Under the pieces are notes generated by a model, which did no database searches, had not been told where the DNA came from, and worked only from the letters and a program-made list of their open reading frames with translations. The translations under genes were made by a program, and so were the position numbers. Positions 24,464 to 46,281 of a stretch of DNA of 64,000 bases are shown here, piece by piece (within the stretch, counting starts at the first letter, position 1; every line of letters begins with the position of its first letter). The stretch is from NCBI RefSeq assembly GCF_000383915.1, contig NZ_KB912942.1:3582929-3646928 (forward strand). Direction: 5' to 3'. This DNA comes from Amycolatopsis benzoatilytica AK 16/65 (GTDB taxonomy: Bacteria; Actinomycetota; Actinomycetes; Mycobacteriales; Pseudonocardiaceae).

Positions 24464-25804
24464 TCAGCTCACTGCGGGATTTTCTTCCCGGCGAAGCGTT
24501 TCGGGCATGACCAAGACCGCGACCCCGCCCACCGCGCTGAGGACCATGAGGTAGACCGCCACGCCCCACGGCGATCCCCCGCCCCAGGCCACGAGGGCCG
24601 CGGAGACCAGCGGCGCGGTTCCGCCGACGACGGCGGCAGGTATCTCGCGTGCCGCGGCGATCCCGCTCCACCGCGAGCTGGCGGGGAACAGCTCGGACAT
24701 CAGCGCGCCGGCCGGACCGGACGTCGCGCCCTGGCTGATCCCGATCCCCAGCGTCATCGCCAGCCCGATGACCCACGGCGACGAAGAGTGCAGCATCCAG
24801 AACATCGGCCAGGGGAACACCAGGCAGAACGCCGCGCCGCCGAGCAGGACCGGGCGGCGGCCGACCCGGTCCGCGAGCCGGCCGAACGCGACGATCAGCG
24901 GGATGGCGAGCAGCTCCGCGACGATGAGACAGGCCAGCGCGGTGCCGGAGGGAGCGTGCAAGGTCTTGGTCACGTACGAGAGCACGAAGACCTGCATCAC
25001 GTAAGCCCAGGGGATGACGAACGCGAACAGCGCCATCCCCTGCAGCACCTGCCGCCGATGGTTTCGGGCCACCTGGAGAAGCGGGGCTTTCTCCAGTTCG
25101 CCGGCGTCGCGCACGCCCGAGAACTCCGCAGTTTCCTCCACCCGCAGCCGAAGATAGCCTGCGACCAGCACGATGACCGCGCTCGCCAGGAACGGCAGCC
25201 GCCAGCCCCAGCTGGTGAAGATCTCGTGCGGCAGCAGAGAGAACAGCGCGAAGACCGCCGTCGCACCGCCCGTGCCGACATAAATGGCCGCGCCGGGCAG
25301 GCTGCTTGCCAGCGCCCGTCCCCGGCTTGAGGTCGACTCGGTGACCATGGTGATGGCGCCCGCGAACTCCGCTCCGGCGCCCGCGCCTTGCACGAGCCGG
25401 AGCACGACGAGCAGGATCGCCGCCCAGGGCCCGATCAATGCTGCCGTGGGCAGGGCCCCGATCAGCGTAGTCGAAGCTCCCATGACGATGAGCGTCAGGA
25501 ACATCATCGGCTTGCGGCCGATCCGGTCTCCGAAATGCGCGAAGATCAGCCCGCCCACCGGACGGGCGCCAAGCCCGACTGCGAACGTCGCCAACGAGGC
25601 CAGGACCCCGCCGAGGTCGCCGGCTCCCGGGAAGTACAGCGGACCGAAGATCAGCGCGGCCGCCAAGCCGTAAAGGGTGAAGTCGTACCACTCGATGACG
25701 GTTCCGGCGACGCTGGCGCGAAACATCCGCCGACGCTGCAGCCGCGCGGCGTCCCCGTCGGTGGATGATGCACCGCGCCCGGCGGTGACTCGTGGTGTCG
25801 GCAT
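24464..25804 (-). CDS. MFS transporter, metabolite:H+ symporter type
   Basis: The 446-residue protein has 12 predicted membrane segments and the signature GTVIEWYDFTLYG near the N-terminus, typical of the metabolite:H+ symporter (shikimate/alpha-ketoglutarate/proline-betaine) group. GDRIGRKPMMFLTL is the loop 2-3 motif. It probably imports an organic acid or related metabolite. It is the first gene of the operon, and the operator at 25851-25862 stands 47 bp before its ATG. Confidence 0.9.
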   Translation of the reverse strand: MPTPRVTAGRGASSTDGDAARLQRRRMFRASVAGTVIEWYDFTLYGLAAALIFGPLYFPGAGDLGGVLASLATFAVGLGARPVGGLIFAHFGDRIGRKPMMFLTLIVMGASTTLIGALPTAALIGPWAAILLVVLRLVQGAGAGAEFAGAITMVTESTSSRGRALASSLPGAAIYVGTGGATAVFALFSLLPHEIFTSWGWRLPFLASAVIVLVAGYLRLRVEETAEFSGVRDAGELEKAPLLQVARNHRRQVLQGMALFAFVIPWAYVMQVFVLSYVTKTLHAPSGTALACLIVAELLAIPLIVAFGRLADRVGRRPVLLGGAAFCLVFPWPMFWMLHSSSPWVIGLAMTLGIGISQGATSGPAGALMSELFPASSRWSGIAAAREIPAAVVGGTAPLVSAALVAWGGGSPWGVAVYLMVLSAVGGVAVLVMPETLRREENPAVS

Positions 25805-25850: not shown

Positions 25851-25862
25851 GTAACCGGTTTC
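25851..25862. promoter_or_regulatory. Operator of the AACCGGTT regulon, site 1
   Basis: GTAACCGGTTTC has a perfect AACCGGTT core with near-symmetric flanks. It lies 47 bp upstream of the MFS start. The same 12-mer occurs at 34453, its inverse form at 25975 and 36156, and a one-sided variant at 36068. The likely binder is the LacI protein at 34801-35823. Confidence 0.75.
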
Positions 25863-25974
25863 TACACGATTCACCCGAGGCGCGTCAACAGCGCCTCAGA
25901 CTGCAGCTTTTACACCGCACAAGGGCCATTATCGGCCGGGTATTGCTGTTAGACTCACCGCCGATCTTGGGTCA

Positions 25975-25986
25975 GAAACCGGTTAC
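25975..25986. promoter_or_regulatory. Operator of the AACCGGTT regulon, site 2
   Basis: GAAACCGGTTAC, the reverse complement of site 1 except the outer bases, lies 20 bp before the GTG of the zinc dehydrogenase. With site 1 it brackets a 112-bp divergent promoter space, centre to centre 124 bp, which would permit looping. Confidence 0.75.
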
Positions 25987-26006
25987 TAGATGATGAGGAG
26001 CTTCCG

Positions 26007-27071
26007 GTGAAGACAGTCGTGGTGCGCGAACCGGGCCGAGTGGCGACGGAGGACGCCGCCCCTCCCCGTGAACCCGAGCCGCACGAACTCGCCCTGCGCC
26101 TGCATTCCGTCGGCATCTGCGGCGGCGACCTCGCGCTCGTCCGCGGGCGGAACCCGCTGGTCTCCTATCCGGTGGTGCCCGGACACGAGTGCGTAGCCAT
26201 CGTGGAGCACGACCCCGGCGGCCGGCTCGCCACCGGCTCGTCCGTGGCGATCTATCCGACAGCGTCGTGCGGCGATTGCCGGGCGTGCCGGGCCGGCCGG
26301 TTCAACAACTGTGCCGGGATGCAGGTGCTCGGCTTGTCGGATCCGCGGGGCTGTCTCGCCGAACGCTTCGTCCTCCCGCGGTCGCAGGTCATCCCGCTGC
26401 CTGCCGGGCTGGGCGAACGGGCCGGCGCACTGATCGAACCGCTCGCAGTCGCGTCGCATGTCTGCGACCGGTCGGCGCTCGGCCACGGTGACACCGCACT
26501 CGTCGTCGGCGCGGGCGCCATCGGACTGGCCACTGGCCTCACCGCGCGGGCCAACGGCACCGAACGCGTACTGTTCGCCGACACCCTCCCGGAGCGTGTC
26601 GAGGTCCTGGCACGCTTGGGCTTCGCGGATTTCACCGTGTGTCGCGAGGACGACCTGATCGCCTGGGTCAAGGAACGCACGGGCACCGTCGACGTCGTGT
26701 TCGACACCGTCGGCCTCACCTCGACCGCGGCAGTGGCTTCGGCTGTGCTCGCCGGCGGCGGACGCTACGTCACGATCGCCGCAGCCAAGCCCGGCCACCG
26801 GATCGAACTCGACTACCAGGCGTTCTACGAGCGCGAACTCACCCTGGTCAGTTCGCGCAACTACACCCCGGCCGATTTCCGTTCCGCGATCGGACGACTC
26901 GAACGCGGCGAGGTCGACCCGCTTCCCCTGCGCACCGCCGTGTACGGCCTGTCCGGCGCGGCAGCCGCATTCCACGAACTCCTCGAACACCCCGAGCGCA
27001 ACGTCAAGGTCTTGATCACCCCGGACGACCTTCTCGGCACGACACCGCTCCTGACCGGGGTGCAACGATGA
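26007..27071 (+). CDS. Zinc-dependent sugar/polyol dehydrogenase (MDR family)
   Basis: The 354-residue medium-chain dehydrogenase has catalytic zinc ligands Cys38 (GICGGD) and His60-Glu61 (GHEC), the structural-zinc cysteines Cys88, Cys91, Cys94 and Cys102, and the NAD loop VVGAGAIGLATG. It resembles sorbitol/galactitol/gulonate-type dehydrogenases and would oxidise a secondary alcohol of a polyol or sugar acid. The GTG start follows GAGGAG by six bases. The next gene starts inside its stop codon (ATGA). The upstream operator places it in the AACCGGTT regulon. Confidence 0.88.
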   Translation: MKTVVVREPGRVATEDAAPPREPEPHELALRLHSVGICGGDLALVRGRNPLVSYPVVPGHECVAIVEHDPGGRLATGSSVAIYPTASCGDCRACRAGRFNNCAGMQVLGLSDPRGCLAERFVLPRSQVIPLPAGLGERAGALIEPLAVASHVCDRSALGHGDTALVVGAGAIGLATGLTARANGTERVLFADTLPERVEVLARLGFADFTVCREDDLIAWVKERTGTVDVVFDTVGLTSTAAVASAVLAGGGRYVTIAAAKPGHRIELDYQAFYERELTLVSSRNYTPADFRSAIGRLERGEVDPLPLRTAVYGLSGAAAAFHELLEHPERNVKVLITPDDLLGTTPLLTGVQR

Positions 27072-28069
27072 AGGTCGCCATGCTCGGAGCAGGCTTGGCG
27101 GCGGGCGGACATCTTCGCGCGCTCGCGGCGCTCGACGCCACAGTCGTCACGGTCGCGACCCGCAGCCCGCAACGTTTCGCCCGCATTCGCGAGCGATTCC
27201 CCGGTGCTCGCCAGTGCTGGCCGCCAGAGGACGCCATGGACGGCGTCGACCTGGCGCTGATCCTCACCCCGCCCGCGACGCACCTGGGCCTCGTTCGCGT
27301 CGCGGCCGGCCGCGGGATCGACGTCGTTGTGGAAAAGCCGCTCGAAGTCTCGGCCGAACGCGCCCGGGCGCTCGTCGAGGTCGCCGAATCGGCCGGAATC
27401 GGCCTGGCCGTCTGCTACCAGCACCGCGCGAAGGAAGCCGGACGCGCGCTGCAGCGGCTGGCGGCCGCGGGCGAGCTCGGCCAGCTCGTCGGCGGGAACC
27501 TCCAGATGGCCTGGTGGCGACCCCAGTCCTATTACGACGAGTCCGGCCGCGGGCAGCTGGCGCGAGACGGCGGCGGAGTGCTGATCACCCAGGCCATCCA
27601 CACCCTCGATCTGCTCGTGTGGGCAATGGGCCGTCCTCGGCGCGTGCTGGCGACATCGGGCCGCTCTCCGGCGCACACGATCGAAGCCGAGGACACTATG
27701 GCGGCCCTGCTGGACTACGGCCCCGGCGCCACGATCAGCCTCTTCGTCACCACGGCCGCCGGGCAGGGCGCACCCGAGCAGTTGACCCTGGTCGGCAGCG
27801 CGGCGACCGCAACCCTGCACGGGCCGCGGCTGACGCTGCACCGGATCGGCGCGTCCGAACCGGAGATCTGGGGCGACGCAACGGGATCGGGCATCGAAGC
27901 GGACACGAGCCGGATGCCCGCAGACTGGCACACCGAGCTGCTGCGCGACGCGATTTCGGCCTTCTGCGAGAAACGGGAACCGCTTGCGAGCGGAAGGTCG
28001 GCGCTGGCGACGCAATCCGTGGTGCAGGCTCTCTACGACTCCGCCGCGACCGGCTCCTGGGCCGGCTGA
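27068..28069 (+). CDS. Gfo/Idh/MocA-family oxidoreductase
   Basis: The 333-residue protein begins with a Rossmann fold (MLGAGLAAGGHLRAL) and carries the family's EKPLEVSAERA motif with the catalytic Lys, followed by the C-terminal alpha/beta domain with DGGGVLITQAIHTLDLL, where His is the usual active-site residue. Members oxidise sugars, inositols and glycosides, often at C3, with bound NAD(P). The start overlaps the stop of the zinc dehydrogenase. Together with the DHDPS-like and TIM-barrel genes at 36-38 kb this suggests chemistry on a keto-sugar. Confidence 0.9.
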   Translation: MKVAMLGAGLAAGGHLRALAALDATVVTVATRSPQRFARIRERFPGARQCWPPEDAMDGVDLALILTPPATHLGLVRVAAGRGIDVVVEKPLEVSAERARALVEVAESAGIGLAVCYQHRAKEAGRALQRLAAAGELGQLVGGNLQMAWWRPQSYYDESGRGQLARDGGGVLITQAIHTLDLLVWAMGRPRRVLATSGRSPAHTIEAEDTMAALLDYGPGATISLFVTTAAGQGAPEQLTLVGSAATATLHGPRLTLHRIGASEPEIWGDATGSGIEADTSRMPADWHTELLRDAISAFCEKREPLASGRSALATQSVVQALYDSAATGSWAG

Positions 28070-28075
28070 ACGCGG

Positions 28076-28118
28076 GCCGATGGCTGGCCCCGGTCACCGG
28101 CCCGGGCCAGCCATCGGC
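28076..28118. terminator. Bidirectional terminator hairpin
   Basis: A perfect 15-bp inverted repeat (GCCGATGGCTGGCCC / GGGCCAGCCATCGGC) with a 13-base loop fills the 55-bp gap between the convergent Gfo/Idh/MocA and MaoC genes. It can end transcription from both sides. No U-tract is present, as is common in actinomycetes. Confidence 0.85.
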
Positions 28119-28124
28119 GACGGT

Positions 28125-28556
28125 TCACACGAACGCGAGGACGTGTGTCCCGACGAGCACCGTCTCCCCTCGTTGGTTGGTGATTTCGATGTCCGACACG
28201 GCTCGGCGCCGCTCCTGGTCGAGCGACGCCAACCGGTACGTGACGGTCACTGTGTCGCCGATGCGCACCGGCCCGACGAAGCGGATCCGGTCATAGCCGA
28301 GCGACACCGCGTGCCCGCCGATCAGCGCCGCCATCTGGGTGGACGCCGTCGACGAGAAACCGAGAACGAGCACACCGTGGGCGATCCGGCCGCCGTAACG
28401 GCTGGCGGCCATGAACTGCTCGTCCACGTGGTTCGGTGCGAAGTCGCCGGTGATTCCGGCGAACCCGTAGACATCGCTCTCCGCGACAGTCTTGCGGAAC
28501 GTGATCTCGTGTCCCGCCAAGTGCTCCGGGATCGGGGACACCGCCCGGCCCGACAT
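28125..28556 (-). CDS. MaoC-family dehydratase (hotdog fold)
   Basis: The 143-residue protein is a single hotdog domain with the R-specific enoyl-CoA hydratase pattern: FAGITGDFAPNHVDEQFMA contains the catalytic Asp/His, and RIAHGVLVLGF is the conserved following helix. It would hydrate or dehydrate a CoA thioester. The start overlaps the NDMA-type dehydrogenase stop (TGATG). It is the last gene of the ABC transporter operon, which is unexpected for a sugar-uptake operon. Confidence 0.88.
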   Translation of the reverse strand: MSGRAVSPIPEHLAGHEITFRKTVAESDVYGFAGITGDFAPNHVDEQFMAASRYGGRIAHGVLVLGFSSTASTQMAALIGGHAVSLGYDRIRFVGPVRIGDTVTVTYRLASLDQERRRAVSDIEITNQRGETVLVGTHVLAFV

Positions 28557-29674
28557 CAGTGCTCGTGAACGAGCACGCCGCGGATGTTCGCCCCGGCATG
28601 CAGGTCGGCGTAGGCCTGATTCACCTCGTCGAGGCGGTAGCGCCGGGTGATGAGTTCGTCGAGTTTGAGCCGCCCGCTGCGGTAATAGCCGAGCAACGCC
28701 GGGATGTCGTGGGTTGGGTTGCAGTTGCCGAACAGCAGACCCCGCAACTGCTTCGCGTAGACGACCAGTTCGAGCGGGCTGATCGGGATCCCCGGTTCGT
28801 TCTGCCCGATCGAAGCCACGGCGACCGTGCCCCGCTTGCGGACCGCGGAAAACGCTTCGGCGATCAGGTCGCCGGTCACCACTCCGACGGTGACCACTGC
28901 CGAGTCCGCGCCCTGCCCGTTGGTGACCGACCGGATGAACGGCATCGCCTCCTCGATCGAGGCGAACGCGTGCGTCGCGCCGAGCGACAATGCCATTTCC
29001 CGTTTGAAAGCAACGGGATCGACCGCGACGACGTACGCCGCGCCCGCATGGCTCGCGCCCTGCACCGCATTGATCCCGACGCCACCGACCCCGACGATCA
29101 GCGCAGTGTCGCGGGGGCGCACTCCCGCCGCGTTCACCGCGGCGCCCCAGCCGGTGCCGACCCCGCACGACACCAGGCAGGCGACATCGAACGGGATGTC
29201 GTCGTCGATCTTCACTGCCTGCGCCTCGTCGGTGACCAGGTGATCGGCGAACGTCCCGAGCCGTTGCATCGCACCGATTCCGAGCCCGGCGGACGTGCTG
29301 AACCGAGCGGAGCCGTCCAGTGCCATGCCGGTTTCCATTCCCGCGCCGGTATCGCAGATGTACTGCATCCCCTGGGCGCACCACGTGCACGTCCCGCACG
29401 CGGGCAGATACGCGGTGGCGACATGGTCGCCGACCTTCAGCCGCCGGACGGCGCTGCCGACCGCTTCCACGACGCCCGCCCCTTCGTGCCCGCCCACGAG
29501 CGGGAGGGCGTTCGGGATGTCACCGGTGACGAGGTGGTCGTCGGAATGGCAGAGCCCGGACGCCATGACTTTGACGCGGACCTCGGTGGGGCCCGGATCG
29601 CGCAGCGTCAGCCGCTCGACGCTCCACTTGGCGCCCACTTCGTGAATGACCGCACCATTGACCTGAATACTCAC
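28556..29674 (-). CDS. NDMA-dependent-type alcohol dehydrogenase
   Basis: The 372-residue zinc dehydrogenase has Cys42 (GLCHSDDH), His63-Glu64 (GGHEGAG), structural-zinc cysteines 93, 96, 99 and 107, and the segment CDTGAGMETGMALDGSARF typical of the NDMA-dependent alcohol dehydrogenases of actinobacteria. In that family NAD(H) is tightly bound and electrons pass to an outside carrier, usually mycofactocin. No mycofactocin genes are in the window. It is 28 bp after the second ABC permease and coupled to MaoC, so it oxidises an alcohol made from the imported substrate. Confidence 0.9.
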   Translation of the reverse strand: MSIQVNGAVIHEVGAKWSVERLTLRDPGPTEVRVKVMASGLCHSDDHLVTGDIPNALPLVGGHEGAGVVEAVGSAVRRLKVGDHVATAYLPACGTCTWCAQGMQYICDTGAGMETGMALDGSARFSTSAGLGIGAMQRLGTFADHLVTDEAQAVKIDDDIPFDVACLVSCGVGTGWGAAVNAAGVRPRDTALIVGVGGVGINAVQGASHAGAAYVVAVDPVAFKREMALSLGATHAFASIEEAMPFIRSVTNGQGADSAVVTVGVVTGDLIAEAFSAVRKRGTVAVASIGQNEPGIPISPLELVVYAKQLRGLLFGNCNPTHDIPALLGYYRSGRLKLDELITRRYRLDEVNQAYADLHAGANIRGVLVHEH

Positions 29675-29702
29675 CAGAACTCCTTAGCAACGCCGCGAAC
29701 GG

Positions 29703-30707
29703 CTACTTGATCATCGAGAGTTTCTTGCGGTCGAGCGTGAGCGCCACCGCGACGATCACCACCACCCCGTAGACGATCTGCTGGTAGTTCGGGTCGATTC
29801 CGGCGACCGACCCGCCGACTCGCAACACGGTAACGATGAGCGCTCCCACCAGCACCCGCCAAGGCCCTCCGATGCCGCCGGTGATCGCGCACCCGCCGAC
29901 CACCGCGGCGGCGATGGCAGGCAGCAGCAGAGAATTCCCCAGCTGCGCGGCGGCGCTCTGCTGCTGCGCGGTCAGCACGATCCCGGCCAGCCCCGACAGC
30001 AATCCGGACAACGCGAACGCCGCCACCTTGACGCGCCGGGTGCGGATCCCCGACAGGAGAGCCGCACGCTCGCCAAGCCCGACGACGTGGAGCACGTTGC
30101 CCCGGGGGTGGTGCCGCATGACCAGCCAGCCCACCGCCACGACCAGCACCGTCAGCAGGACCGACGCCGAAACAGAGCCGATGCCCAGGTTCGTCAGCCA
30201 ACTGATCGCGCCGAAGCCGGCGCTGACGTAGATCGTGGACGCGCCGGACAGCACGAGGGCGACCGCGCCCCAGAAACCCAGCGCCCCCAAGGTGATGACG
30301 AACGACGGCACCTGCCCGTACGCGACGAGCGCACCGCTGAGCGCGCCGGCGCCGGTCAGCACCACCAGCGTGACGAGCACTGCCGCCGGTCCGAGCTCCG
30401 GAAGCAGGCGTGCCACCAGCACAGTGCCCAACGAGGCCAGAGCGGCCGCGGACAGATCGATCCCGCCGATGAGGATGACGAACATCTCCGCCAGTCCCAG
30501 CAGCAGAATCGGCACCGCCTGGTTGGCAACGACGAGCAGGCTCTGTCCACTGAGGAATGCCGGCGCGGCGAGCGCGACGAGCAGGACCAGCGCCGCCAGG
30601 ACAGCCAGTGGCCCGAACATCCGCAGCCGCCGGCCGGCGGCGAACCGCCGGGATGGCCTGGCCTCCGGCGGGGCGGAGATCGTGGTCGGTTCGGTCGAGA
30701 GGGTCAT
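29703..30707 (-). CDS. Sugar ABC transporter permease (ribose type)
   Basis: A 334-residue BPD_transp_2-type permease: IGGIDLSAAALASLG in the first third, FVITLGALGFWGAVAL, and the coupling loop VVGLGERAALLSGIRTRRV. It has about nine hydrophobic segments. It pairs with the permease at 32241-33278 and follows the ATPase by seven bases. Substrate is unknown; the family imports pentoses, hexoses and polyols. Confidence 0.9.
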   Translation of the reverse strand: MTLSTEPTTISAPPEARPSRRFAAGRRLRMFGPLAVLAALVLLVALAAPAFLSGQSLLVVANQAVPILLLGLAEMFVILIGGIDLSAAALASLGTVLVARLLPELGPAAVLVTLVVLTGAGALSGALVAYGQVPSFVITLGALGFWGAVALVLSGASTIYVSAGFGAISWLTNLGIGSVSASVLLTVLVVAVGWLVMRHHPRGNVLHVVGLGERAALLSGIRTRRVKVAAFALSGLLSGLAGIVLTAQQQSAAAQLGNSLLLPAIAAAVVGGCAITGGIGGPWRVLVGALIVTVLRVGGSVAGIDPNYQQIVYGVVVIVAVALTLDRKKLSMIK

Positions 30708-30714
30708 CGTCGCC

Positions 30715-32244
30715 TCACATCATCTTCTCGAGCAGCTGAACCGCGGTAGGCCGGCTGGCACCCGGTTCGGGCGAGTCGCCGCCGAAGCGGCCGGTCACCC
30801 GGCCGTCCCGCATGACCAGCACTCGGTGGCTCATCCCGATGGCTTCGTCCAGGGTGTCGGCGAGCAGCAGGATCGAGGTTCCCTGCGCGCACAGGTCGTG
30901 GAACAGCCGGTACAGATCCTCTTTCGCGCCGATGTCGAGCCCTCGGGTCGGGTGGTCGAGCACCAGCAGCCGGGGTGGACCGGACTGCAGCCAGCGGGCG
31001 ATGGCAGCCTTCTGCTGGTTGCCGCCGGAGAGCCGGGCGATGTCGGCGTGCGGGTCCGGTGGCCGGACCCCCAGCTTGCCGATCCACGTGCGCGCGATCG
31101 CGTCCCGCCGCGCCGCGGTCACGACGCCGCCTTTCGCCGCCGTCCCGGGATGCACGAGCACGATGTTCTCGGCCACCGTGGCACCGGCGATCATGCCCTC
31201 GGCGCGCCGTTCCGCCGGCACGTAGGCGATTCCCGCCCGCACGGCCTGCGCGGGAGAAGAGGCACGCAGCGGCTGCCCGTCGAGGCGCACCTCGCCATCC
31301 GAAGGGAGCGCGCCGAAGACCGCGCGGGCGACTTCTTCGCGACCGGAGCCGGCGACGCCGACCAGTCCGACGATTTCCCCAGCGTGGGTCTCGAAGGACA
31401 CGTCGTGCACCAACCCGCGAACCGACAAGCCGCGGACCGACAGCACGGGCCGGGCGCTGCGATCGACCCGAACCCTCCGTTCTTCGGAGTAGAAGCCGGC
31501 GGCGGACTCCCGCCCGATCATCATGCGGTACAGATCGTCCTCGGTCGCGTCCGCGGCGTCCCGTTCCCCGACGACCGCGCCATCGCGCAGGACGTACACC
31601 CGGTCGGAGAAGCGCAGGATCTCGTCCAGCCGGTGCGAAACGAAGATCACCGAGCCGAGGTCCCGCAGGGCGCGGACGCGCTCGTACAGGATGTCGATGT
31701 CTTCCTCTTCCAGCACGGAAGTGGGTTCGTCGAATACGACGAGCGGCGGCCGACCGGCGTTCCCCGCGGCCGCTGCCCGCGCCACCTCGACCATCTGCCG
31801 CTGGGCGAAGCTCAGATCACCGGTGAGCGCCGACGCCGCGACATCGGACTCGACGGTGGCGAGCATCGCCGCCGCCCGCGCTTCCTGGCGGCGGCGACGG
31901 ATGAACCCGGCGCGCACCGTGTCGCCCTCCCGGCCGATGAGGAGGTTCTCGGCGACTGTGAGATTAGCCAGCAGAGACTGTTCCTGGTGCACGACGCCGA
32001 CACCGTGCCGGGCCGCGACCGCCGGAGCGGTCAGCCGGACGGGCTGCCCGGAAAGCAGGATCTCGCCCTCGTCTGGCTGGTGGTTGCCTGCCAGCAACTT
32101 GAGCAGAGTCGATTTCCCGGCGCCGTTCTCGCCGATCAGTCCGACCACCTCGTGCCGGCGCACGGTGATCGACACGTCGGACAATGCGGCGTGCCCGCCG
32201 AAACGCTTGGTGACATTGCGCAGTTCGAGCAAGGGGTCGGTCAT
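30715..32244 (-). CDS. Sugar ABC transporter ATP-binding protein
   Basis: This 509-residue tandem ABC ATPase has Walker A GENGAGKS, signature LSFAQRQMVEVARAAA and VVFDEPTSVLEEED in domain one. Domain two has the degenerate GVAGSGREE loop and LSGGNQQKAAIARWLQ. Its Walker B ends VLDHPTRGLDIG: the usual catalytic Glu is His, so the second site is probably inactive. Domain one keeps Glu. ATG 32244 overlaps the permease stop (ATGA); the frame stays open upstream inside the permease gene but that is antisense-type noise. Confidence 0.9.
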   Translation of the reverse strand: MTDPLLELRNVTKRFGGHAALSDVSITVRRHEVVGLIGENGAGKSTLLKLLAGNHQPDEGEILLSGQPVRLTAPAVAARHGVGVVHQEQSLLANLTVAENLLIGREGDTVRAGFIRRRRQEARAAAMLATVESDVAASALTGDLSFAQRQMVEVARAAAAGNAGRPPLVVFDEPTSVLEEEDIDILYERVRALRDLGSVIFVSHRLDEILRFSDRVYVLRDGAVVGERDAADATEDDLYRMMIGRESAAGFYSEERRVRVDRSARPVLSVRGLSVRGLVHDVSFETHAGEIVGLVGVAGSGREEVARAVFGALPSDGEVRLDGQPLRASSPAQAVRAGIAYVPAERRAEGMIAGATVAENIVLVHPGTAAKGGVVTAARRDAIARTWIGKLGVRPPDPHADIARLSGGNQQKAAIARWLQSGPPRLLVLDHPTRGLDIGAKEDLYRLFHDLCAQGTSILLLADTLDEAIGMSHRVLVMRDGRVTGRFGGDSPEPGASRPTAVQLLEKMM

Positions 32245-33278
32245 TTGATCACCCGCAACCGGTCGCGAGCGGGCCACGCCGCCGCGATCACCGCCGCGAC
32301 CAAGACGACGCCCTGCGCAGCCTGCTGCAGGTAAGGACTCGCCCCGGACAGCAGCAGACCGTTGCCGAGCACGGTCAGCAGGAGCACTCCGACCACAGTG
32401 TGCAGCGGGCCGCCCCGTCCGCCCGAAAGCAGCGTCCCGCCGAGGACGACCCCGGACAAGGTCAGGAACAGGTCGCCGGACCCGACGCTCACGTCCCCGA
32501 CGCCGAGCCGGATCGTGGCCAGCACGCCGCCGAACCCGGACAGCAGTCCTGCGAGCGTGAAGATCGCGATCTTGTAGCGGCCGACGTGGATGCCTGCCAG
32601 CCGGGCGATCTGTTCGTCCCCGCCGATCGCGTAGGCGTACCGGCCCAGAACGGTGACCCGGCACAGCACCGCCACCGCCGCGACCACGAAGAGCGCGATC
32701 AGCACGACGATCGGCAGGCCAAGCAGGCGACTGCCCGCCCACCCTCGAAAAGTGCCGTCGAGCAGCTGCGGCGGCACGGTTCCGAACAGCACCGTCGCCG
32801 CTCCGAGGCCGATGAACCAGGTTCCGAGCGTCACCATGAACGAAGGCACCCGGGCCTGGACGTGCAGCACCCCGTTGAGCAGTCCGAACCCCGCGCCCAC
32901 CGCCAGCGCGGCGATCAGGGCGAGCACGCCGAAATCGTTGTGGTTGACGGAGTTGTGCGCGAGCAGGACGAACGTCAGGCCGCTCGCGGCCATCACTCCC
33001 TCGATGGACAGGTCGATTCCGCCCAGCAGGACGACCAGCGTCGCGCCCATCGACAGCACGAGGGGGATCGCTGCCTGCTCGAGGATCGCCGAGGCATTGC
33101 CCAGCGTCGCGAACGACGGCGTCAGCGCGGCGAACACCACGCACAGCACAAGCAGCGCCAGCGCCGGGCCAGCGGTGAACAACAGCCGCTGCCGTGCGGC
33201 GGAGGTGCGCCGCGAGCCCATCGCGCCGGCAGGCCGGGCTCGGTCTTCGAGGACTGAGGGTGCGCTGCGGCCGGTCAT
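32241..33278 (-). CDS. Sugar ABC transporter permease (ribose type)
   Basis: A 345-residue permease with LLGGIDLSIEGVMAASGL, FMVTLGTWFIGLGAAT and the coupling loop AIGGDEQIARLAGIHVGRY. It begins inside the stop of the binding-protein gene (four-base overlap) and ends inside the ATPase start. With the other permease, the ATPase and the lipoprotein it completes a four-gene importer. Confidence 0.9.
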   Translation of the reverse strand: MTGRSAPSVLEDRARPAGAMGSRRTSAARQRLLFTAGPALALLVLCVVFAALTPSFATLGNASAILEQAAIPLVLSMGATLVVLLGGIDLSIEGVMAASGLTFVLLAHNSVNHNDFGVLALIAALAVGAGFGLLNGVLHVQARVPSFMVTLGTWFIGLGAATVLFGTVPPQLLDGTFRGWAGSRLLGLPIVVLIALFVVAAVAVLCRVTVLGRYAYAIGGDEQIARLAGIHVGRYKIAIFTLAGLLSGFGGVLATIRLGVGDVSVGSGDLFLTLSGVVLGGTLLSGGRGGPLHTVVGVLLLTVLGNGLLLSGASPYLQQAAQGVVLVAAVIAAAWPARDRLRVIK

Positions 33279-34375
33279 CCGATCGGCCCAGCGTTGCGGC
33301 CCAGCGGGTCCTTCACCGACGCGACGATCTGCTGTGCGCTGGGTTCGGCGGTGTACTTGGCGACATTGTCTTTCGTAATCAGGTATTGCTGCACGTAGAA
33401 GGAGCGGTCGCGATGCGGCAGCGAGCCGACCTTCAGCTGCCCGGTCGCCGCCTGGTAGGCGAGCGCGAGACCCATCGCGCCGTTGTAGTACGGGTCAGTG
33501 GTGTAGGTCGAGACCAGATCGCCGCGCTGGATCGCCTGCAGCCCTTCGGGAGTGGCGTCGGCCGAACTGGCGATCTTGACCTGGCCTGCCCGGCCGGCTT
33601 CGGTCACCGCCTGCAGCGCGCCCAGCGCCATCGAGTCGGTAGCCGCCCAGATCCCCTTCACCTCGCTGCCGTATTTGTTGAGCAGCGTTTTCGTTGTCGC
33701 GTAAGCCTTGTTGCGGTCGAAGTCGGCGGGCTGCTGGTCGAGCAGCTTGATCCCCGGGGAACCCGCTATCCCCTGCTGGAAACCGTCGAACCGGGACTTG
33801 CTGATGTCGTTGGCAAGCAGGCCCTGCAACGCGATCACGCCGCCCTGTCCGCCGAGCGCATCGGCGAGCGCCTTTCCGGTCTGCGCGCCTTCCTGCCGCC
33901 CGTCGTAGCTGACGTAGGCGACCCAGTTGTCGCCCACGTCCCACGGCTGAAGGTCGTTCGGCTTGCTCCACTGGGTGACCGCGTACCCGCCCGCGTTCTT
34001 CACCGCGTGCACGATCGCCGGCGTGTCCGCCGTGGTGTTCGGGTTGATATTGAGCAGCACCTTTTTGCCGCCCGCGAGAACCGACTGCAGCTGGGAGAGC
34101 GCCTGCTGCGAATCGCCGTTGTAGACGATCGTCTTCAGCTCGATGCCCAGGGAGTCCGCGTAGGCCTTGCTGCCCGCCACCCACTGCGCCTCGTACGGGT
34201 TGGTCAGCGACCGGACCTCCGAAACCATGATCATGTCGTTCTTGGCGACCGGCGCGGCCGTGCTCCCGGTCGCAGAAGTCGTCGAACATCCGGCCGCGCC
34301 GGCTACGAGCGCCGCCGCCGCGAGGGCGGTCGCGCCTCGCGACCACTGGGACTGAGCTCCCCGGAAGACCTTCAT
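33275..34375 (-). CDS. Sugar ABC transporter substrate-binding lipoprotein
   Basis: A 366-residue receptor with a lipoprotein signal (basic start, hydrophobic core, lipobox VAGAAGC) and a type 1 binding fold: MIMVSEVRSLTNPYEAQW, then VLLNINPNTTADTPAIVHAV and VTQWSKPND. ATG 34375 was chosen because it begins the signal peptide and follows AGGTGGAACGC; an in-frame ATG ten codons upstream is less likely. The operator at 34453-34464 lies 78 bp upstream. It opens the transporter/NDMA-ADH/MaoC operon. Confidence 0.9.
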   Translation of the reverse strand: MKVFRGAQSQWSRGATALAAAALVAGAAGCSTTSATGSTAAPVAKNDMIMVSEVRSLTNPYEAQWVAGSKAYADSLGIELKTIVYNGDSQQALSQLQSVLAGGKKVLLNINPNTTADTPAIVHAVKNAGGYAVTQWSKPNDLQPWDVGDNWVAYVSYDGRQEGAQTGKALADALGGQGGVIALQGLLANDISKSRFDGFQQGIAGSPGIKLLDQQPADFDRNKAYATTKTLLNKYGSEVKGIWAATDSMALGALQAVTEAGRAGQVKIASSADATPEGLQAIQRGDLVSTYTTDPYYNGAMGLALAYQAATGQLKVGSLPHRDRSFYVQQYLITKDNVAKYTAEPSAQQIVASVKDPLGRNAGPIG

Positions 34376-34452
34376 GCGTTCCACCTGTCTCTCGTTGTGC
34401 CGCACTGCACCACCGGCGTCACGCGCGCACCAACTTCACCGAGCCGACGCCA

Positions 34453-34464
34453 GTAACCGGTTTC
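34453..34464. promoter_or_regulatory. Operator of the AACCGGTT regulon, site 3
   Basis: GTAACCGGTTTC, identical over all 12 bases to site 1, followed by the same TAC as at 25863. It stands 78 bp before the binding-protein ATG. A transcription start between this site and the ATG would place the operator over the promoter. Confidence 0.75.
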
Positions 34465-34770
34465 TACACAAGACGAGCGACCGCTGTCAATAGCGCTCTC
34501 ACCTGCACAGTCTCCGAGAAGATCACGAAACTCAGAAGCAGTATTCGTTTACTCACGAGAAGCCCCCGGCTCCGTGGCCAACGAACAGGGCAACCGCGTC
34601 CGTCCCGCGAGGAAACGAACGGACCGCACCCGGCGGTCAGGCAGGCTCGGCGAGGCACGCGCCGAGGCGGCATGCACGCTGACGCGGGGTTTTTCCGCGC
34701 GCCGGGATCGCCCGGTGCCCGCCGGTCGCCGCACCGTGCCGATCGCATCGAGGCCGCGCGCGCACGTTCA
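34465..34770. other. Gene-free stretch
   Basis: I see no gene here. Short frames on both strands lack ribosome sites and family motifs. It is the spacer between the end of the LacI gene and the promoter of the transporter operon. Confidence 0.4.
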
Positions 34771-34785
34771 CCGGGGTCACCCCGG
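34771..34785 (-). terminator. Weak hairpin after the LacI gene
   Basis: CCGGGGTCACCCCGG is a short inverted repeat 15 bases beyond the LacI stop. The arms are only about five to seven bases and no U-tract follows, so this is a tentative call. Confidence 0.3.
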
Positions 34786-34800
34786 CCTTACCGCGGCGAA

Positions 34801-35823
34801 TCAGGACGCCTTGACCGGCCCCGTCGACTGCCGCTTCTGCAGGGTCGCGGCCAGCAGGACCTCGTTGCCTTCGGGCTTCTGGCCGTTGATCGCACCGTTG
34901 AGCAAAGCCCAGGCTCGACGGCCGAGTTCGTCGCGAGGACTCGTCGCCGTCGTCAGGGCCGGGTAGACATGCCGTCCGATGCTGAGGTCGTCGAAGCCCG
35001 TCACCGAGACATCGCGAGGCACGTCCAGCCCTTCGTCGCGAAGCCTGGAGATGACGCCGATGGCAGAGAGGTCGTTGAAGCACACGATCGCGGTCGGGCC
35101 GTGGCCGAGCGCCTGCTCCGCCGCCTCGTAACTGGTCTCGATCGTCCCGTCGCCTTCGACTCGCACTGAATCCAGGTTCAGGAAACGGTTCGCGGTCTGT
35201 ACCGCCCGCCAGCGCTCACGGTCCTGCCAGGCCAGCTCGGACCCGGACACGTACACGACCCGCCGATGGCCCAGTTCGGCCAGATGCGCGCAGATCTCCA
35301 GCGTCGCGGTGAAGCTGTCCACCCCGACCATCGGCAGGTCCACGCCGAGTTCAACCCGGTTGATGAGCACGACCGGAGTCTTCTGCCGGGCCAGTTCCTT
35401 GAGATCCCCGACCCGGATCCGGGACGACAGCAGCGCGAGGCCGTCCACGTGCCCCATCAAGTCCCAGGCCGTGGCGAACTCGTCGTCCGGCTTGCCGGAG
35501 TGGTCCGAGATGAGCATGCGAAACCCGGTGTCGGACGCGACGTCGTGCATGCCTTTGACGATGTCGTGGAAGTAGGCGTTGCCGAGGTCCGGCATCAGGG
35601 CCCCGATGTTGCGCAGCGCCCCGAGAGCCAAGTTCCGCGCGGTCTCGCTGGGCCGGTACGCGAGCTCCTCGGCAACCCTGCGAACGCGTTCCGCGAGCTC
35701 CGGATTGACCGTGGAGACACCGCTCATCACCCGCGACACCGTCGCGGTCGACACGTTCGCAGCCGCCGCGACCGTGCGAATCGTCACGCGATCCGGATCG
35801 GTCGGCCGCGCCGTATCACCCAT
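34801..35823 (-). CDS. LacI-family regulator, probable controller of the AACCGGTT regulon
   Basis: The 340-residue core has a LacI HTH (VTIRTVAAAANVSTATVSRV, about 13-35, then MSGVSTVNPELAERV) and an effector domain ending SVTGFDDLSIGRHVYPALTT. It is central to the five AACCGGTT operators and one lies in front of it, so autoregulation is likely. ATG 35823 follows GGGAGG by nine bases and gives normal LacI length. However, the frame stays open to a GTG at 36054 with a stronger ribosome site (GGGAGG, six-base spacing), directly behind the operator at 36068, so a 77-residue longer form is possible. Confidence 0.88.
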   Translation of the reverse strand: MGDTARPTDPDRVTIRTVAAAANVSTATVSRVMSGVSTVNPELAERVRRVAEELAYRPSETARNLALGALRNIGALMPDLGNAYFHDIVKGMHDVASDTGFRMLISDHSGKPDDEFATAWDLMGHVDGLALLSSRIRVGDLKELARQKTPVVLINRVELGVDLPMVGVDSFTATLEICAHLAELGHRRVVYVSGSELAWQDRERWRAVQTANRFLNLDSVRVEGDGTIETSYEAAEQALGHGPTAIVCFNDLSAIGVISRLRDEGLDVPRDVSVTGFDDLSIGRHVYPALTTATSPRDELGRRAWALLNGAINGQKPEGNEVLLAATLQKRQSTGPVKAS

Positions 35824-36067
35824 CGAGCGTTGCCTCCCTGCAGCCTTCGGCCGGATCGTTGTGCCCGCACTGCCGCGATGATATGCGGTCTCGGTCTCCG
35901 CGATCGGCTCAGGGACCACGCCGGCGTGGTCCGGCTCCAGGTCACGCTGCTCGTGCCGACTGCCGGACCGGCGAACCGGCAGCGGACCGTCCGTGCGCGG
36001 ATCGGCGCCCGCCGCGACCGCGACAGGCGCCGGCTCGAACTTCTTCGCCTTCACTCCACGCCTCCCG

Positions 36068-36079
36068 GTAACCGGATAC
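36068..36079. promoter_or_regulatory. Operator of the AACCGGTT regulon, site 4 (variant)
   Basis: GTAACCGGATAC keeps one full half-site and one altered half. It lies 13 bp upstream of the alternative GTG start of the LacI gene and 88 bp (centre to centre) from site 5. It fits weak autoregulation. Confidence 0.55.
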
Positions 36080-36155
36080 TCACCAGGCTGCCACCGAGCA
36101 CACCGCTCTTGTCATCGCAGCACGGAACGCTATAAGGTCCGGCTCAACAGTATCA

Positions 36156-36167
36156 GAAACCGGTTAC
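36156..36167. promoter_or_regulatory. Operator of the AACCGGTT regulon, site 5
   Basis: GAAACCGGTTAC, identical to site 2, sits only 11 bp before the ATG of the DHDPS-like gene. Binding here would block both transcription start and possibly elongation. Confidence 0.75.
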
Positions 36168-36178: not shown

Positions 36179-37336
36179 ATGACGGCGATCGCCCTGCCCA
36201 GCAGCAACGGAACCATCCGGCCCCTCATTCTCGGCGACCCGGCGGACCTGGCCCCGCGCAGCGAACCGGCTGCCAGCCGCATGGCCTACGCGGCCGCGCA
36301 CGTAGTGGCCGACCCGCTCGTCGCCTCCGCCGCGGGAACGCCCGGGCAGATCGACTGGGACTCGACGCTCGGCCTGCGCCACCGCCTGTGGGATCTCGGC
36401 CTCGGCGTCGCCGAGTCGATGGACACCGCCCAGCGGGGCATGGGGCTGGACTGGCCCGCAGCCCGCGAACTCGGCCGGCGCACGCTGGCCGAAGCCCGCA
36501 GCCGCGACGCACGGGTCCTGGTAGGCATCGCGACCGACCAGCTGCCGCCGGAGGCGGCCGGCCTCGCCGCGATCCAGGACGCCTACCTCGAACAGCTGGA
36601 CGCCATCGAGTCCAGCGGCGGTCAGGTCGTGCTGATGGCCAGCCGGCACCTGGCCAAGGCGGCACGCTCCGAGGACGATTACCTCGCGGTGTACTCCGCG
36701 GTGCTGAAGGAAGCCCGACGTCCAGTCGTTCTGCATTGGCTAGGCAGCGTCTTCGACCCCGCCCTGGCCGGGTACTGGGGCCATGCCGACCCGGCCGCCG
36801 CGATGCCGGTGGTACGCGGTTTGATCGACAGCCACCGCGATTCGGTCCGCGGCATCAAGGTCTCGCTGCTCGACGCGGACCTCGAACGGGACCTGCGTCG
36901 CCAGCTGCCCGACGGAGTGCAGTTGTTCACCGGCGACGACTATCACTACACCGATCTCATAGCCGGCGACGGCCAGCACCACAGTGACGCGCTGCTGGGT
37001 GCGTTCGCGGTCGTCGGCCGCCACGCCTCGGCGGCACTGGCCCGCCTGGACTCCGGGGACGAGGCCGGCTTCCGCGACATCCTGGCACCGACGGAAACCT
37101 TGTCCCGTCTCGTTTTCGCCGAGCCGACGCGGTACTACAAGGTCGGGGTGGCCTGGTTGGCATACCTTTCCGGCGCTCAGTCGCACTTCCGCATGATCGC
37201 CGGCTTCGAAACGGGACGAAGCCTGGGGCATCTCGGCGACCTGGTCCGGGCGGCCGACGCGGTCGGCCTGTTTCCAGACCCGGAATCCGCCGCACATCGC
37301 GCTTCCGCGTACTTCGCCGTCCACGGGATCGCGTGA
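36179..37336 (+). CDS. Dihydrodipicolinate synthase-like protein (DUF993 type)
   Basis: The 385-residue protein matches the DUF993 group of the DHDPS/N-acetylneuraminate lyase superfamily. These use a Schiff-base lysine to join or split keto acids. Lys227 in RGIKVSLLD is the candidate, with VLHWLGSVFDPALAGYWGH, QLFTGDDYHYTDLI and FEPTRYYKVGVAWLAYLSG-like text (read AEPTRYYKVGVAWLAYLSG) as further family landmarks. The enzyme's substrate is not known. It probably performs an aldol cleavage in the pathway. It opens a three-gene operon behind operator site 5; its stop overlaps the next GTG (GTGA). Confidence 0.82.
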   Translation: MTAIALPSSNGTIRPLILGDPADLAPRSEPAASRMAYAAAHVVADPLVASAAGTPGQIDWDSTLGLRHRLWDLGLGVAESMDTAQRGMGLDWPAARELGRRTLAEARSRDARVLVGIATDQLPPEAAGLAAIQDAYLEQLDAIESSGGQVVLMASRHLAKAARSEDDYLAVYSAVLKEARRPVVLHWLGSVFDPALAGYWGHADPAAAMPVVRGLIDSHRDSVRGIKVSLLDADLERDLRRQLPDGVQLFTGDDYHYTDLIAGDGQHHSDALLGAFAVVGRHASAALARLDSGDEAGFRDILAPTETLSRLVFAEPTRYYKVGVAWLAYLSGAQSHFRMIAGFETGRSLGHLGDLVRAADAVGLFPDPESAAHRASAYFAVHGIA

Positions 37337-38223
37337 TCCTGATGGGCCTTTCGCTGTGCAGCCTCAACTCGGCGACGATCAAGCACGCATCGTTTTCCGA
37401 TCTGATCGCACTTGCCGTGCACCACGGGTTCGGCGGCGTCGGCCTGTGGCGCGACAGCTACGCCGCGACCGGTGCCGCCAGCGCCGCGCGGCTCCTCGCG
37501 AAGGCCGGACTGCGAGTCACCAGCGTCTGCCGCGGAGGAGCCTTCCCCCAACCCAGTGCCGAAGCTCGCGCCGCAGTTCGCGAGGACAATCTCCGTGCGC
37601 TCGACGAGGCGCACGCACTCGGCGCCGACTGTCTTGTGCTCGTGTGCGGTCCGGCGATCGGCCGCGATCTGGAAGGCGCCCGCAGGCAGATCGAGGACGG
37701 CATCGCCGATCTCATCCCGCGCGCCGCCTCGGCGGGCGTTCCTCTCGCGGTCGAACCGATGCACCCGATGATGGCCGCCGACCGATCGGCCGTCACGTCG
37801 CTGGCTGAGGCCAACGACCTGCTCGATCGGCTGGACAGCGAATGGGTCAGCCTGTGTCTGGACAGCTATCACCTGTGGTGGGACGCCGCGCTCCCCGCCG
37901 AGGTCGCCCGCGCCGCGGGCCGGGTGTCGTCTGTCCAGTTGGCCGACTGGATACTCCCCATCGAAGGCCAGCTCTCCAGCCGCGGCATGCCCGGCGAGGG
38001 CACCATCGACCTCGCCGGATTCGTCGAACTCGTCGCCGGGGCGGGCTATCCCGGCCTCGTGGAAGTCGAAGTCCTCAGCGACCGGTGGTGGTCCGTTCCT
38101 CCGGCCGACGCGGCCCGCGCTGCTGCGGACGGACTGCACGCTCTGTCCCTGCACCGCGGAGCGCCGTCTGCCGGACCGTCCGCGCACGCCTGGCTTTCCG
38201 CCTTGGCCAAGGAGTCGTCGTGA
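37333..38223 (+). CDS. Sugar phosphate isomerase/epimerase family protein
   Basis: A 296-residue xylose-isomerase-like TIM barrel. Candidate metal ligands are Glu in LAVEPMHPM, Asp and His in CLDSYHLWWD, and Glu in LVEVEVLSDRWW; the loop SSRGMPGEGTIDLAGF is the usual substrate-lid region. Relatives include keto-sugar epimerases, inosose isomerases and glycoside beta-eliminating enzymes. The GTG start overlaps the stop of the DUF993-type gene and its own stop overlaps the next GTG. Confidence 0.85.
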   Translation: MILMGLSLCSLNSATIKHASFSDLIALAVHHGFGGVGLWRDSYAATGAASAARLLAKAGLRVTSVCRGGAFPQPSAEARAAVREDNLRALDEAHALGADCLVLVCGPAIGRDLEGARRQIEDGIADLIPRAASAGVPLAVEPMHPMMAADRSAVTSLAEANDLLDRLDSEWVSLCLDSYHLWWDAALPAEVARAAGRVSSVQLADWILPIEGQLSSRGMPGEGTIDLAGFVELVAGAGYPGLVEVEVLSDRWWSVPPADAARAAADGLHALSLHRGAPSAGPSAHAWLSALAKESS

Positions 38224-39026
38224 CGTCGACCTGCCCTTCCGGATTCCCGGCCGCGTCCGGCACGGTCACCGTCCGGGCCAGTGCCGACGAGCAGGTGGCC
38301 ACGATCCTCATCGATCGGGCCGACCAGCTCAACGCGCTCACGCTCGACCTGCTCGCCGATCTCGACGACGCGCTCGCCGAGATCGCCGATTCCCCTGCTC
38401 GCGTCGTGCTCGTCCGCACCGCTGGCGAAAAAGCGTTCTGCGTCGGGGCGGACATCAAGGTCTTCTCGCGGCTGGCGCCGGAAGAGATGTGGCGCCGGTG
38501 GATCGCCTCCGGCCACCGCACTTTCGATCGGCTGGCCGGGCTGCCGCAGCCGACTATCGCCGTGGTCGACGGGCTCGCTCTCGGCGGCGGGCTGGAACTC
38601 GCCATGTCCTGCGATCTGCGGATCGCGCACCGCCGGGCCGAGTTCGGGCTTCCAGAGACGGGCCTCGGCACGATCCCGGGCTGGGGAGGGACCGCGCGGC
38701 TGACCGACCTGGCAGGCCCGTCACGAGCCAAACACCTGATCCTCACCCGGCGGCGGATCGATGCCGACACCGCGCTCGCATGGGGCGTCGTGAACTCGGT
38801 CGCGGATGATCTGGAGGCCGCCGTCGGCGGCTTCGTCCGGGATCTCCTCGATTCCGCACCGATCGCCCAGCAAGTCGCCAAACAGCTTGTCGACGCGGCC
38901 GCCGCCGGCGCACCGTCGTCCGTGCTCGAAGCGATCGCCAGCGGATTCACCGCGCACACCGCCGACTTCCGGGAAGGAGTCCGGGCTTTCACCGCCCGGG
39001 CCACGCCGCAGTTCCAGGGCCGCTAG
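38220..39026 (+). CDS. Enoyl-CoA hydratase/isomerase family protein
   Basis: The 268-residue crotonase-fold protein has the oxyanion-hole segments EKAFCVGADIKVFSR and DGLALGGGLELAMSCDLR and the acid/base region FGLPETGLGTIPGWGGTARL, where Glu is catalytic in hydratases. It would hydrate an enoyl-CoA, possibly the product of the acyl-CoA dehydrogenase at 23260. GTG 38220 overlaps the preceding stop (GTGA); the open frame upstream is an out-of-frame shadow of the isomerase gene. It ends the operon behind operator site 5. Confidence 0.9.
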   Translation: MTSTCPSGFPAASGTVTVRASADEQVATILIDRADQLNALTLDLLADLDDALAEIADSPARVVLVRTAGEKAFCVGADIKVFSRLAPEEMWRRWIASGHRTFDRLAGLPQPTIAVVDGLALGGGLELAMSCDLRIAHRRAEFGLPETGLGTIPGWGGTARLTDLAGPSRAKHLILTRRRIDADTALAWGVVNSVADDLEAAVGGFVRDLLDSAPIAQQVAKQLVDAAAAGAPSSVLEAIASGFTAHTADFREGVRAFTARATPQFQGR

Positions 39027-41708: not shown

Positions 41709-41714
41709 ATTGAG

Positions 41715-46267: not shown

Positions 46268-46281
46268 TGTAATCGCTTACA
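46268..46281. promoter_or_regulatory. LacI operator before the CoA-transferase, proximal
   Basis: TGTAATCGCTTACA is a near-perfect palindrome with TGTAA/TTACA arms, 18 bp upstream of the CoA-transferase ATG. It matches the site in front of the LacI gene at 47343. Confidence 0.7.

Follow-up and report, generated by a model that had tools for sequence, protein, structure and literature searches.

The 64,000-bp window of Amycolatopsis benzoatilytica AK 16/65 analyzed here (contig NZ_KB912942.1, positions 3,582,929 to 3,646,928) contains a 12-bp palindrome, GWAACCGGTTWC, referred to below as the CCGG palindrome, which lies in front of transport and catabolic operons and of the gene for a LacI-family protein, designated LacI1. 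The palindrome is most likely the LacI1 operator, and LacI1 most likely represses a local regulon of 17 genes, with looping of the promoter DNA in the simplest reading. The more interesting result is an operator pair of near-constant length, which survives a change of the operator core.

The clustered palindrome and its candidate regulator

A scan of the window located exact GWAACCGGTTWC at 25851, 25975, 34453, and 36156 along with a form differing at one position, GTAACCGGATAC, at 36068, bearing out the positions given for five sites in an earlier sequence-only reading of this DNA. Each exact copy stands upstream of an operon, as that reading had stated; its claim of two orientations was wrong, since all four copies read GAAACCGGTTAC along the transcript. 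The five sites are real, but a weak sixth, GTATTCGTTTAC at 34541, had been missed, and the assertion that no copy lies elsewhere in the window overlooked a one-mismatch GTAACCGGTTCC at 15082. This last copy is located inside an ABC permease gene and was set aside as a chance match; it is unremarkable because 95 matches with at most one mismatch occur across the genome (about 0.7 per 64 kb, versus 12 for the motif read backwards). With up to two mismatches, 19 matches were counted in the window, against a mean of 3.4 and a largest value of 7 in 100 shuffles.

Across the single-contig genome of 8,704,271 bp, exact GWAACCGGTTWC is present four times, and every copy falls inside the 10-kb stretch. 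About 0.8 copies per genome are expected under an independent-base model with the window's G+C, the chance of four random sites all falling within 10,317 bp is about 7e-9, and the motif read backwards has no exact match across the whole genome. A motif frequent genome-wide without promoter bias, which the sequence-only reading had named as the outcome that would speak against it, was thus not found, the exact copies being confined to this locus. At least one exact copy was present in 74 of the 80 genomes of the genus searched (own included; 0 to 9 each), so that, within the genus, the exact motif is no rarity and the special feature of this genome is the clustering. The looser form GNANCCGGTTAC has 20 matches in the genome, 15 of them outside the five cluster sites; 13 of these fall inside an open reading frame (ORF) whose third-position G+C is 0.77 or more, one in the short-chain dehydrogenase (SDR) gene, and one is unclear. 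This test is weak, since by it two of the five cluster sites also fall in an ORF, at 0.84, and a third in one at 0.53.

GAAACCGGTTAC is an even palindrome with a central CG, the form of operator expected for the LacI/GalR family, and one site (36068, shared with the DUF993 operon in the window) stands upstream of the regulator gene itself. This site, which had been read simply as the lacI-upstream copy, may serve autoregulation of LacI1, and it also appears to be the distal operator paired with 36156. It lies 244 nt from the likely LacI1 ATG (35823), or 13 nt from an in-frame GTG at 36054; the GTG was set aside as the LacI1 start because, in the orthologue of Nocardia gamkensis, a stop codon precedes the ATG, which favors the ATG.

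LacI1 matches PF00356 (46.8 bits, cut-off 27) and PF13377 (109.7 bits, cut-off 26.5), while among the NCBIfam equivalogs (CytR, RbsR, CcpA, GntR, and others) 17 families matched and none exceeded its cut-off, the best being CytR at 189.7 versus 436. The TVSR helix is present, together with the G at operator position NT-6 required by the family rule, as given in the cited sections of PMC2978694. The adjacent LacI1 is the best candidate regulator of the CCGG palindrome, which it is predicted to bind. The regulon of about 15 genes proposed earlier is well supported as a prediction, with LacI1 the likely regulator, and grows to 17 genes if each unit reads through: five in the MFS unit, two in the dehydrogenase unit, six in the importer unit, three in the DUF993 unit, and lacI.

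LacI1 orthologues with their context were identified in Nocardia pneumoniae (71%) and N. gamkensis (69%), in G868 and G1013 of the same family (three hits in 327 genomes, counting the window's own), in 7 of 28 genomes of the genus of G807, and on a plasmid of Rhodococcus sp. USK13. LacI-type operators stand at the matching promoters of the orthologous clusters in G807, G187, G868, G1013, and the Rhodococcus plasmid. In G807 and on the USK13 plasmid they precede the MFS, lacI, DUF993, CoA-transferase, and importer genes, and the lacI-upstream operator also occurs in Nocardia, G807, USK13, and five other genomes of the G807 genus. Both Nocardia loci have GTAACCGGTTCC upstream of the lacI orthologue, and both G868 and G1013 have GTAACCGGTTAC at the DUF993 promoter.

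The operator core co-segregates with the LacI subclade. On a tree of 25 proteins the CCGG label requires two changes, against a mean of 7.9 for shuffled labels, and none of 500 shuffles was as low. The LacI1 clade is split into LacI1, the two Nocardia proteins, G868, and G1013, all with CCGG (99/99), and nine orthologues with GCG-type operators (86/80); the tree includes near-copies, so this represents one core switch in the LacI1 clade, not many. This tree leaves out L203, L139, and L132, which have long or distant branches; LacI2 and G236 have no operator class in it, and G1078 and G1070b were classed by their DUF993 sites, which another nearby LacI gene could own. Residues AA-5, AA-55, and AA-15 are reported in the same sections of PMC2978694 to correlate with NT-2. 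AA-5 is R in the five CCGG members versus N, I, or S in the nine GCG-type members, and among the first 60 positions seven others likewise separate the two groups without overlap. Outside the clade, CCGG relatives have R or H at AA-5 (G178, G283, G315, G125, G256, G106), except L018 (A). A at AA-55 alone, considered as a CCGG rule, fails on G187 (I15/A55, GTAAGCGATTAC). A wider automatic residue test had 8 usable regulators among 27 matched TVSR regulators.

A paralogue in the window, LacI2 (41760-43016), might bind the CCGG palindrome, either in place of LacI1 or alongside it. It shares the AA-15/AA-16 pair (T, A) with LacI1 and lies in the same gene neighborhood, and no CG-centered LacI-type operator was seen near it (window 41274-43016). 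However, LacI2 has S at AA-5 and V at AA-55, versus R and A in all five members of the CCGG subclade; the CCGG operators in G868 and G1013 stand beside the LacI1 orthologue; and LacI2 groups with a third protein, LacI3, whose nearby sites are GTAAGCGATTAC. A role for LacI2 at these sites is improbable. Far less credible still is the view that local duplication clustered a repeat that arose by chance or has no regulatory role. The MFS and importer promoters of the window do share a longer layout, TTGAC followed at equal distance by TAGAAACCGGTTAC, but the palindrome is confined to this locus, sites occupy orthologous promoters in other genera with diverged spacers, and the core change follows the regulator tree.

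Operator pairs of near-constant length

Neighbors of each operator were scored against G.AA.CG.TT.C, with 7 of 8 fixed letters required. In the window, pairs were found at 36068/36156 and 34541/34453 (88 bp each) and, as a weak pair upstream of LacI3, at 47431/47344 (87 bp). Among relatives, the pairs measure 87 bp at DUF993 in G868 and G1013; 86 bp at the MFS, DUF993/CoA-transferase, and importer promoters of G807; and 88 bp between DUF993 and the alcohol dehydrogenase (ADH) gene in G187. Across the clusters fetched, near-copies included, a pair of 86-88 bp is present at 10 of 10 DUF993 promoters, 5 of 6 importer promoters, 6 of 8 MFS promoters, and 3 of 3 CoA-transferase promoters without DUF993. 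At all ten DUF993 promoters two operators at a constrained distance enclose the promoter, with a -10-like element between them in nine. Because the same pair occurs where the divergent gene is not lacI, 36068 is also taken as a distal operator.

In a reduced set of 20 operators, 13 of the 21 neighbors within 400 bp lie at 86-88 bp, whereas random anchors nearby gave at most three in 20,000 repeats. This set left out the near-copies of G807 (USK13, G1068, G1072, G1070a, G1073, and G1075) and, as main sites, 36068, 46323, L016 11104, and the ADH site of G187. A control of 56 other operator-like palindromes, from loci of other regulators including DUF993 loci with other LacI genes, yielded 38 neighbors and none at 86-88 bp; its main-site rule was stricter (8 of 8, at most one mismatched pair), and near-copies and possibly chance palindromes are included. 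The spacers of the DUF993 set are 20-60% identical, and pair length is therefore kept while sequence drifts. A distance of 86-88 bp corresponds to 8.2-8.4 helical turns at 10.5 bp per turn or 7.8-8.0 at 11 bp per turn, and the paired operators suggest DNA looped around the promoter. The constant pair length over several promoters is the apparently unreported part, the loop idea itself having already been proposed for such bacteria.

The constant distance could also arise without looping, if the divergent promoters are compact and each keeps its own operator in a fixed position. All ten DUF993 pairs do lie between divergent genes, and the operators do keep a fixed place relative to the -10 or -35 element, as this explanation expects. 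Yet the same 86-88 bp is found upstream of the importers of the window and of G807, where the upstream gene (lacI and glycerate kinase, respectively) is co-directional, and at the MFS promoter of G807, where the upstream gene is likely co-directional on ORF reading; moreover, the divergent partner of DUF993 varies (lacI, SDR, CoA-transferase, ADH) and the distance stays. We regard this explanation as unlikely, if still a serious contender.

In the mechanism proposed for LacI1, the protein would bind its operators and repress two importers and the catabolic enzymes until released by a metabolite of the pathway. At the MFS and ABC importer promoters a -35-like hexamer precedes the operator by 20 nt, so that the operator covers the -10 region and would keep RNA polymerase out; at the DUF993 and dehydrogenase promoters the operator starts 19 nt after the -10 and therefore lies within the initially transcribed region. 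The proximal operator (O1) alone could block transcription at every unit. At the DUF993 and ABC importer units, where a second operator (O2) lies 86-88 bp upstream with the promoter between, two bound dimers might meet and close a short loop. The promoter elements are constant in relatives: nine of the ten DUF993 promoters (four of these nine are near-copies of one another) have TATANN exactly 19 nt ahead of the proximal operator, and six of the seven promoters scanned for TTGAC have it 20 nt ahead of O1. Those seven are six importer promoters and the window MFS promoter; at the USK13 importer the distance is 21 nt.

Several points weigh against a looped regulon under LacI1. The -10 and -35 assignments were read by eye, with support from this constancy in relatives; a strict sigma-70 scan detected no promoter in any of the three intergenic regions, and no TTGAC was present within 60 nt of the operator in the three G807-type MFS promoters examined. 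The 7-of-8 score and the 86-88 bp band were picked after the first pairs had been seen, and the control was run later. Two window pairs, at the divergent MFS/dehydrogenase promoters (124 bp) and at the CoA-transferase promoter (54 bp), fall outside the band; the USK13 MFS and G187 importer operators have no partner at 86-88 bp; and among lacI promoters only 2 of 11, both in Nocardia, have such a pair, the other nine having no partner. The core domain match of LacI1 ends at residue 334 of 340, which leaves little room for a LacI-type tetramerization tail, and looping would therefore need GalR-like contacts. The Nocardia loci, searched up to 10 kb on each side, yielded only lacI and a 37% MFS match, and the cluster was not found there. 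Finally, no single residue explains the CCGG core: R/H at AA-5 as a full rule fits the LacI1 subclade and fails on L018, and T15 plus A55 fails on G1078 (GTAAGCGCTTTC at DUF993) unless that site belongs to the other nearby LacI.

Gene content, relatives, and the second palindrome

The gene set comprises a sugar-type ABC importer, an MFS importer, dehydrogenases, DUF993, an isomerase, glycerate kinase, and CoA-thioester enzymes (Table 1), and looks like a pathway for the catabolism of a polyol- or sugar-acid-like compound yielding glycerate and acyl-CoA. Among the NCBIfam matches listed, only glycerate kinase and the NDMA-dependent ADH exceed their cut-offs, and no pathway can be named because only these two do. 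Use of a C-glycoside, a cyclitol, or a methyl-branched polyol was considered, found no support in any search, and was dropped. Literature searches for DUF993, and for papers combining four or more of six terms describing the gene set, found nothing. DUF993 is present in 91 of 249 genomes of the order, and the USK13 plasmid annotation assigns it to the dihydrodipicolinate synthase family. In all seven genomes of the same genus that were fetched (L190-L196), the neighbor of DUF993 and the isomerase is a different LacI gene, with GAAAGCGCTTTC close by. A LacI gene next to DUF993 is therefore the usual arrangement, of which the CCGG version is a local variant.

Nearly all of the gene set forms one block in G807 and USK13: MFS, Gfo/Idh, zinc dehydrogenase, lacI, isomerase, DUF993, CoA-transferase, acyl-CoA dehydrogenase, SDR, aldo/keto reductase, glycerate kinase, ABC importer, ADH, aldehyde dehydrogenase, GMC, and a second aldo/keto reductase. 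A search with the importer binding protein in 397 genomes of the order recovered the window's own protein, G187 (73%), G807 (69%), and seven at 39-46%; among 396 genomes of the phylum it recovered the window's own only. In USK13 the entire catabolic cluster (L251) is located on pUSK13_1, a 599-kb linear plasmid predicted to be mobilizable, which fits horizontal spread of the cluster. In Nocardia pneumoniae (L016 11104), GTAACCGGTTTC overlaps the first codons of a gene after lacI, which may encode a glucuronoyl-esterase-type hydrolase.

Judged from these relatives, the CoA-transferase, GMC, and aldo/keto reductase genes of the window (43-49.6 kb) belong to the same gene set. All of them surround LacI3, with both aldo/keto reductases at 47680-49635 and CoA-transferase and GMC at 46249-43032. 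Given the single block of the relatives and the LacI3 neighborhood here, the gene set is therefore divided between two operator types, and the position of the CoA-transferase operon suggests that it is under LacI3. A second palindrome of LacI type, GTAAGCGATTAC, is found around LacI3 and the operon of the CoA-transferase and GMC genes; of the 10 genome matches to GWAAKCGMTTWC, three lie at window 46269-47442. Compared with the predicted CCGG regulon, the catabolic set is larger, part of it lying beside this second palindrome and a second LacI.

Three further observations concern other regulators. A divergent MarR-like gene, recognized by eye, lies near LacI2 with a ACTTGCAAGT palindrome at about 41736. 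In a separate LacI group from two genera of the same family (L128-L131, L133, L134), GAAACCGGTTTC flanks the gene on both sides at other spacings. Window 6232-18591 holds a rhamnose-type-looking catabolic cluster, by eye, with kinase, isomerase, aldolase/dehydrogenase, and ABC importer; ORF translations, also by eye, give it its own LacI gene at 17515.

Table 1. Sites and genes of the predicted CCGG regulon and of the LacI3 region (window coordinates).
Feature	Position	Strand	Remarks
Glycerate kinase	19982..21106	-	MFS operon; over TIGR00045 cut-off
SDR	21103..21840	-	MFS operon; family match
Aldehyde dehydrogenase	21900..23246	-	MFS operon; family match
Acyl-CoA dehydrogenase	23260..24432	-	MFS operon; family match
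MFS transporter	24464..25804	-	First gene of operon; metabolite:H+ symporter type, below NCBIfam cut-off
Putative operator O1, MFS operon	25851..25862	-	GAAACCGGTTAC on gene strand; 46 nt to MFS start; begins 20 nt after TTGACG
-35-like TTGACG, MFS promoter	25883..25888	-	By eye
-10-like TAGACT, zinc-dehydrogenase promoter	25950..25955	+	By eye; 19 nt before operator
Putative operator O1, zinc dehydrogenase/Gfo-Idh operon	25975..25986	+	20 nt to start; 124 bp from MFS operator
Zinc-binding dehydrogenase	26007..27071	+	Dehydrogenase operon, first gene; family match
Gfo/Idh/MocA oxidoreductase	27068..28069	+	Dehydrogenase operon; family match
MaoC-like dehydratase	28125..28556	-	Importer operon; family match
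NDMA-dependent ADH	28556..29674	-	Importer operon; over TIGR03989 cut-off
ABC permease B	29703..30707	-	Importer operon; family match
ABC ATPase	30715..32244	-	Importer operon; family match
ABC permease A	32241..33278	-	Importer operon; family match
Sugar ABC substrate-binding protein	33275..34405	-	Importer operon, first gene; RbsB-like, below NCBIfam cut-off
Putative operator O1, sugar ABC importer operon	34453..34464	-	47 nt to start; begins 20 nt after TTGACA
-35-like TTGACA, ABC importer promoter	34485..34490	-	By eye
Weak putative distal operator O2, importer	34541..34552	-	GTAAACGAATAC on gene strand; 88 bp upstream of 34453
LacI1, predicted cognate repressor	34801..35823	-	LacI helix-turn-helix and periplasmic-binding-like domain; AA-5 R, AA-15/16 T/A, AA-55 A
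Putative operator GTATCCGGTTAC/GTAACCGGATAC	36068..36079	.	DUF993 distal O2, 88 bp from 36156; possible LacI1 autoregulatory site
-10-like TATAAG, DUF993 promoter	36131..36136	+	By eye; 19 nt before operator
Putative operator O1, DUF993 operon	36156..36167	+	11 nt to start
DUF993 protein	36179..37336	+	DUF993 operon, first gene; one solved homologue, 4dnh, uncharacterized
Xylose-isomerase-like TIM barrel	37333..38223	+	DUF993 operon; sugar phosphate isomerase/epimerase type
Enoyl-CoA hydratase	38217..39026	+	DUF993 operon; family match
GMC (choline-dehydrogenase-like) oxidoreductase	43032..44639	-	70% match in G807 and USK13 clusters
CoA-transferase	44684..46249	-	54-57% matches in G807, USK13, and G187 clusters; 41-42% in G868 and G1013
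Second palindrome	46269..46280	-	GTAAGCGATTAC on gene strand; upstream of CoA-transferase operon
Second-palindrome copy	46323..46334	-	GAAAGCGATTTC; 54 bp from 46269
LacI3, paralogous repressor	46336..47331	-	45% to LacI1; downstream ATG at 47331 chosen, listed ORF starts at 47358
Second palindrome	47344..47355	-	GTAATCGCTTAC on gene strand; upstream of LacI3; weak partner at 47431, 87 bp

Comparison with known systems

A broader picture, which we hold tentatively and with slightly less than even confidence, is that of a high-G+C catabolic regulon (of actinobacteria, judging by the named relatives) with a standard looping module, in which module length and operator-promoter distance would have stayed fixed while the core switched from GCG-type to CCGG together with the regulator, the ancestral regulon having been split here between two paralogous repressors. 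Operator loops are known in detail for a few enterobacterial systems, and a fixed-length pair at unrelated promoters in several genera offers a natural series for the spacing needs of a tail-less LacI-family protein. With their two operator cores on a shared promoter scaffold, the orthologues offer a direct test of the LacI recognition code at NT-2, and the uncharacterized DUF993 family is placed in a predicted regulated pathway.

In the E. coli lac system the main operator lies near the start site with an upstream auxiliary operator (O1/O3) about 92 bp away, and LacI is a tetramer with a C-terminal tail; LacI1 differs in having only six residues after the core domain match, too few to be counted as a LacI-type tail. 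According to the cited sections of PMC4052901, LacI regulons in RegPrecise are local, often autoregulated, and mostly served by even palindromes with a central CG. The regulon described here is likewise local and has an even, CG-centered palindrome; the intersite peaks given there are at 13, 22, and 32 bp, and those sections mention none near 87 (PMC4052901). PtxS of Pseudomonas, a LacI-family regulator linked to 2-ketogluconate, has TGAAACCGGTTTCA at kgu +5..+18 and gad +10..+23 (PMC5902321, PMC11678583). Common to both systems are the AACCGGTT core, several operons per regulon, and an operator over or just after the start site, whereas the gene content differs by annotation, and the sites here are asymmetric (GAAA..TTAC), fixed in orientation, and often paired at 86-88 bp. 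No kgu/gad-type product was found among the family matches listed for window proteins; no kgu protein was compared.

AcrC of Actinoplanes sp. SE50/110 (acarbose genes) is another LacI-type repressor from the actinobacteria; its two operators share an intergenic region, and a loop over the 182 bp between them was proposed by its authors (PMC5526262). That system differs in its 182-bp distance, its CTTGC(A/T)G repeats, and its restriction to one intergenic region, and the sections cited describe no constant spacing over multiple promoters (PMC5526262). In the gal repressosome of E. coli, operators OE and OI lie 113 bp (about 11 turns) apart, and GalR dimers meet with HU (PMC4693257). There, as here, promoters lie between two operators of a LacI/GalR-family protein; the distance here differs in being 86-88 bp, in recurring at several promoters and genera, and in being known from sequence alone.

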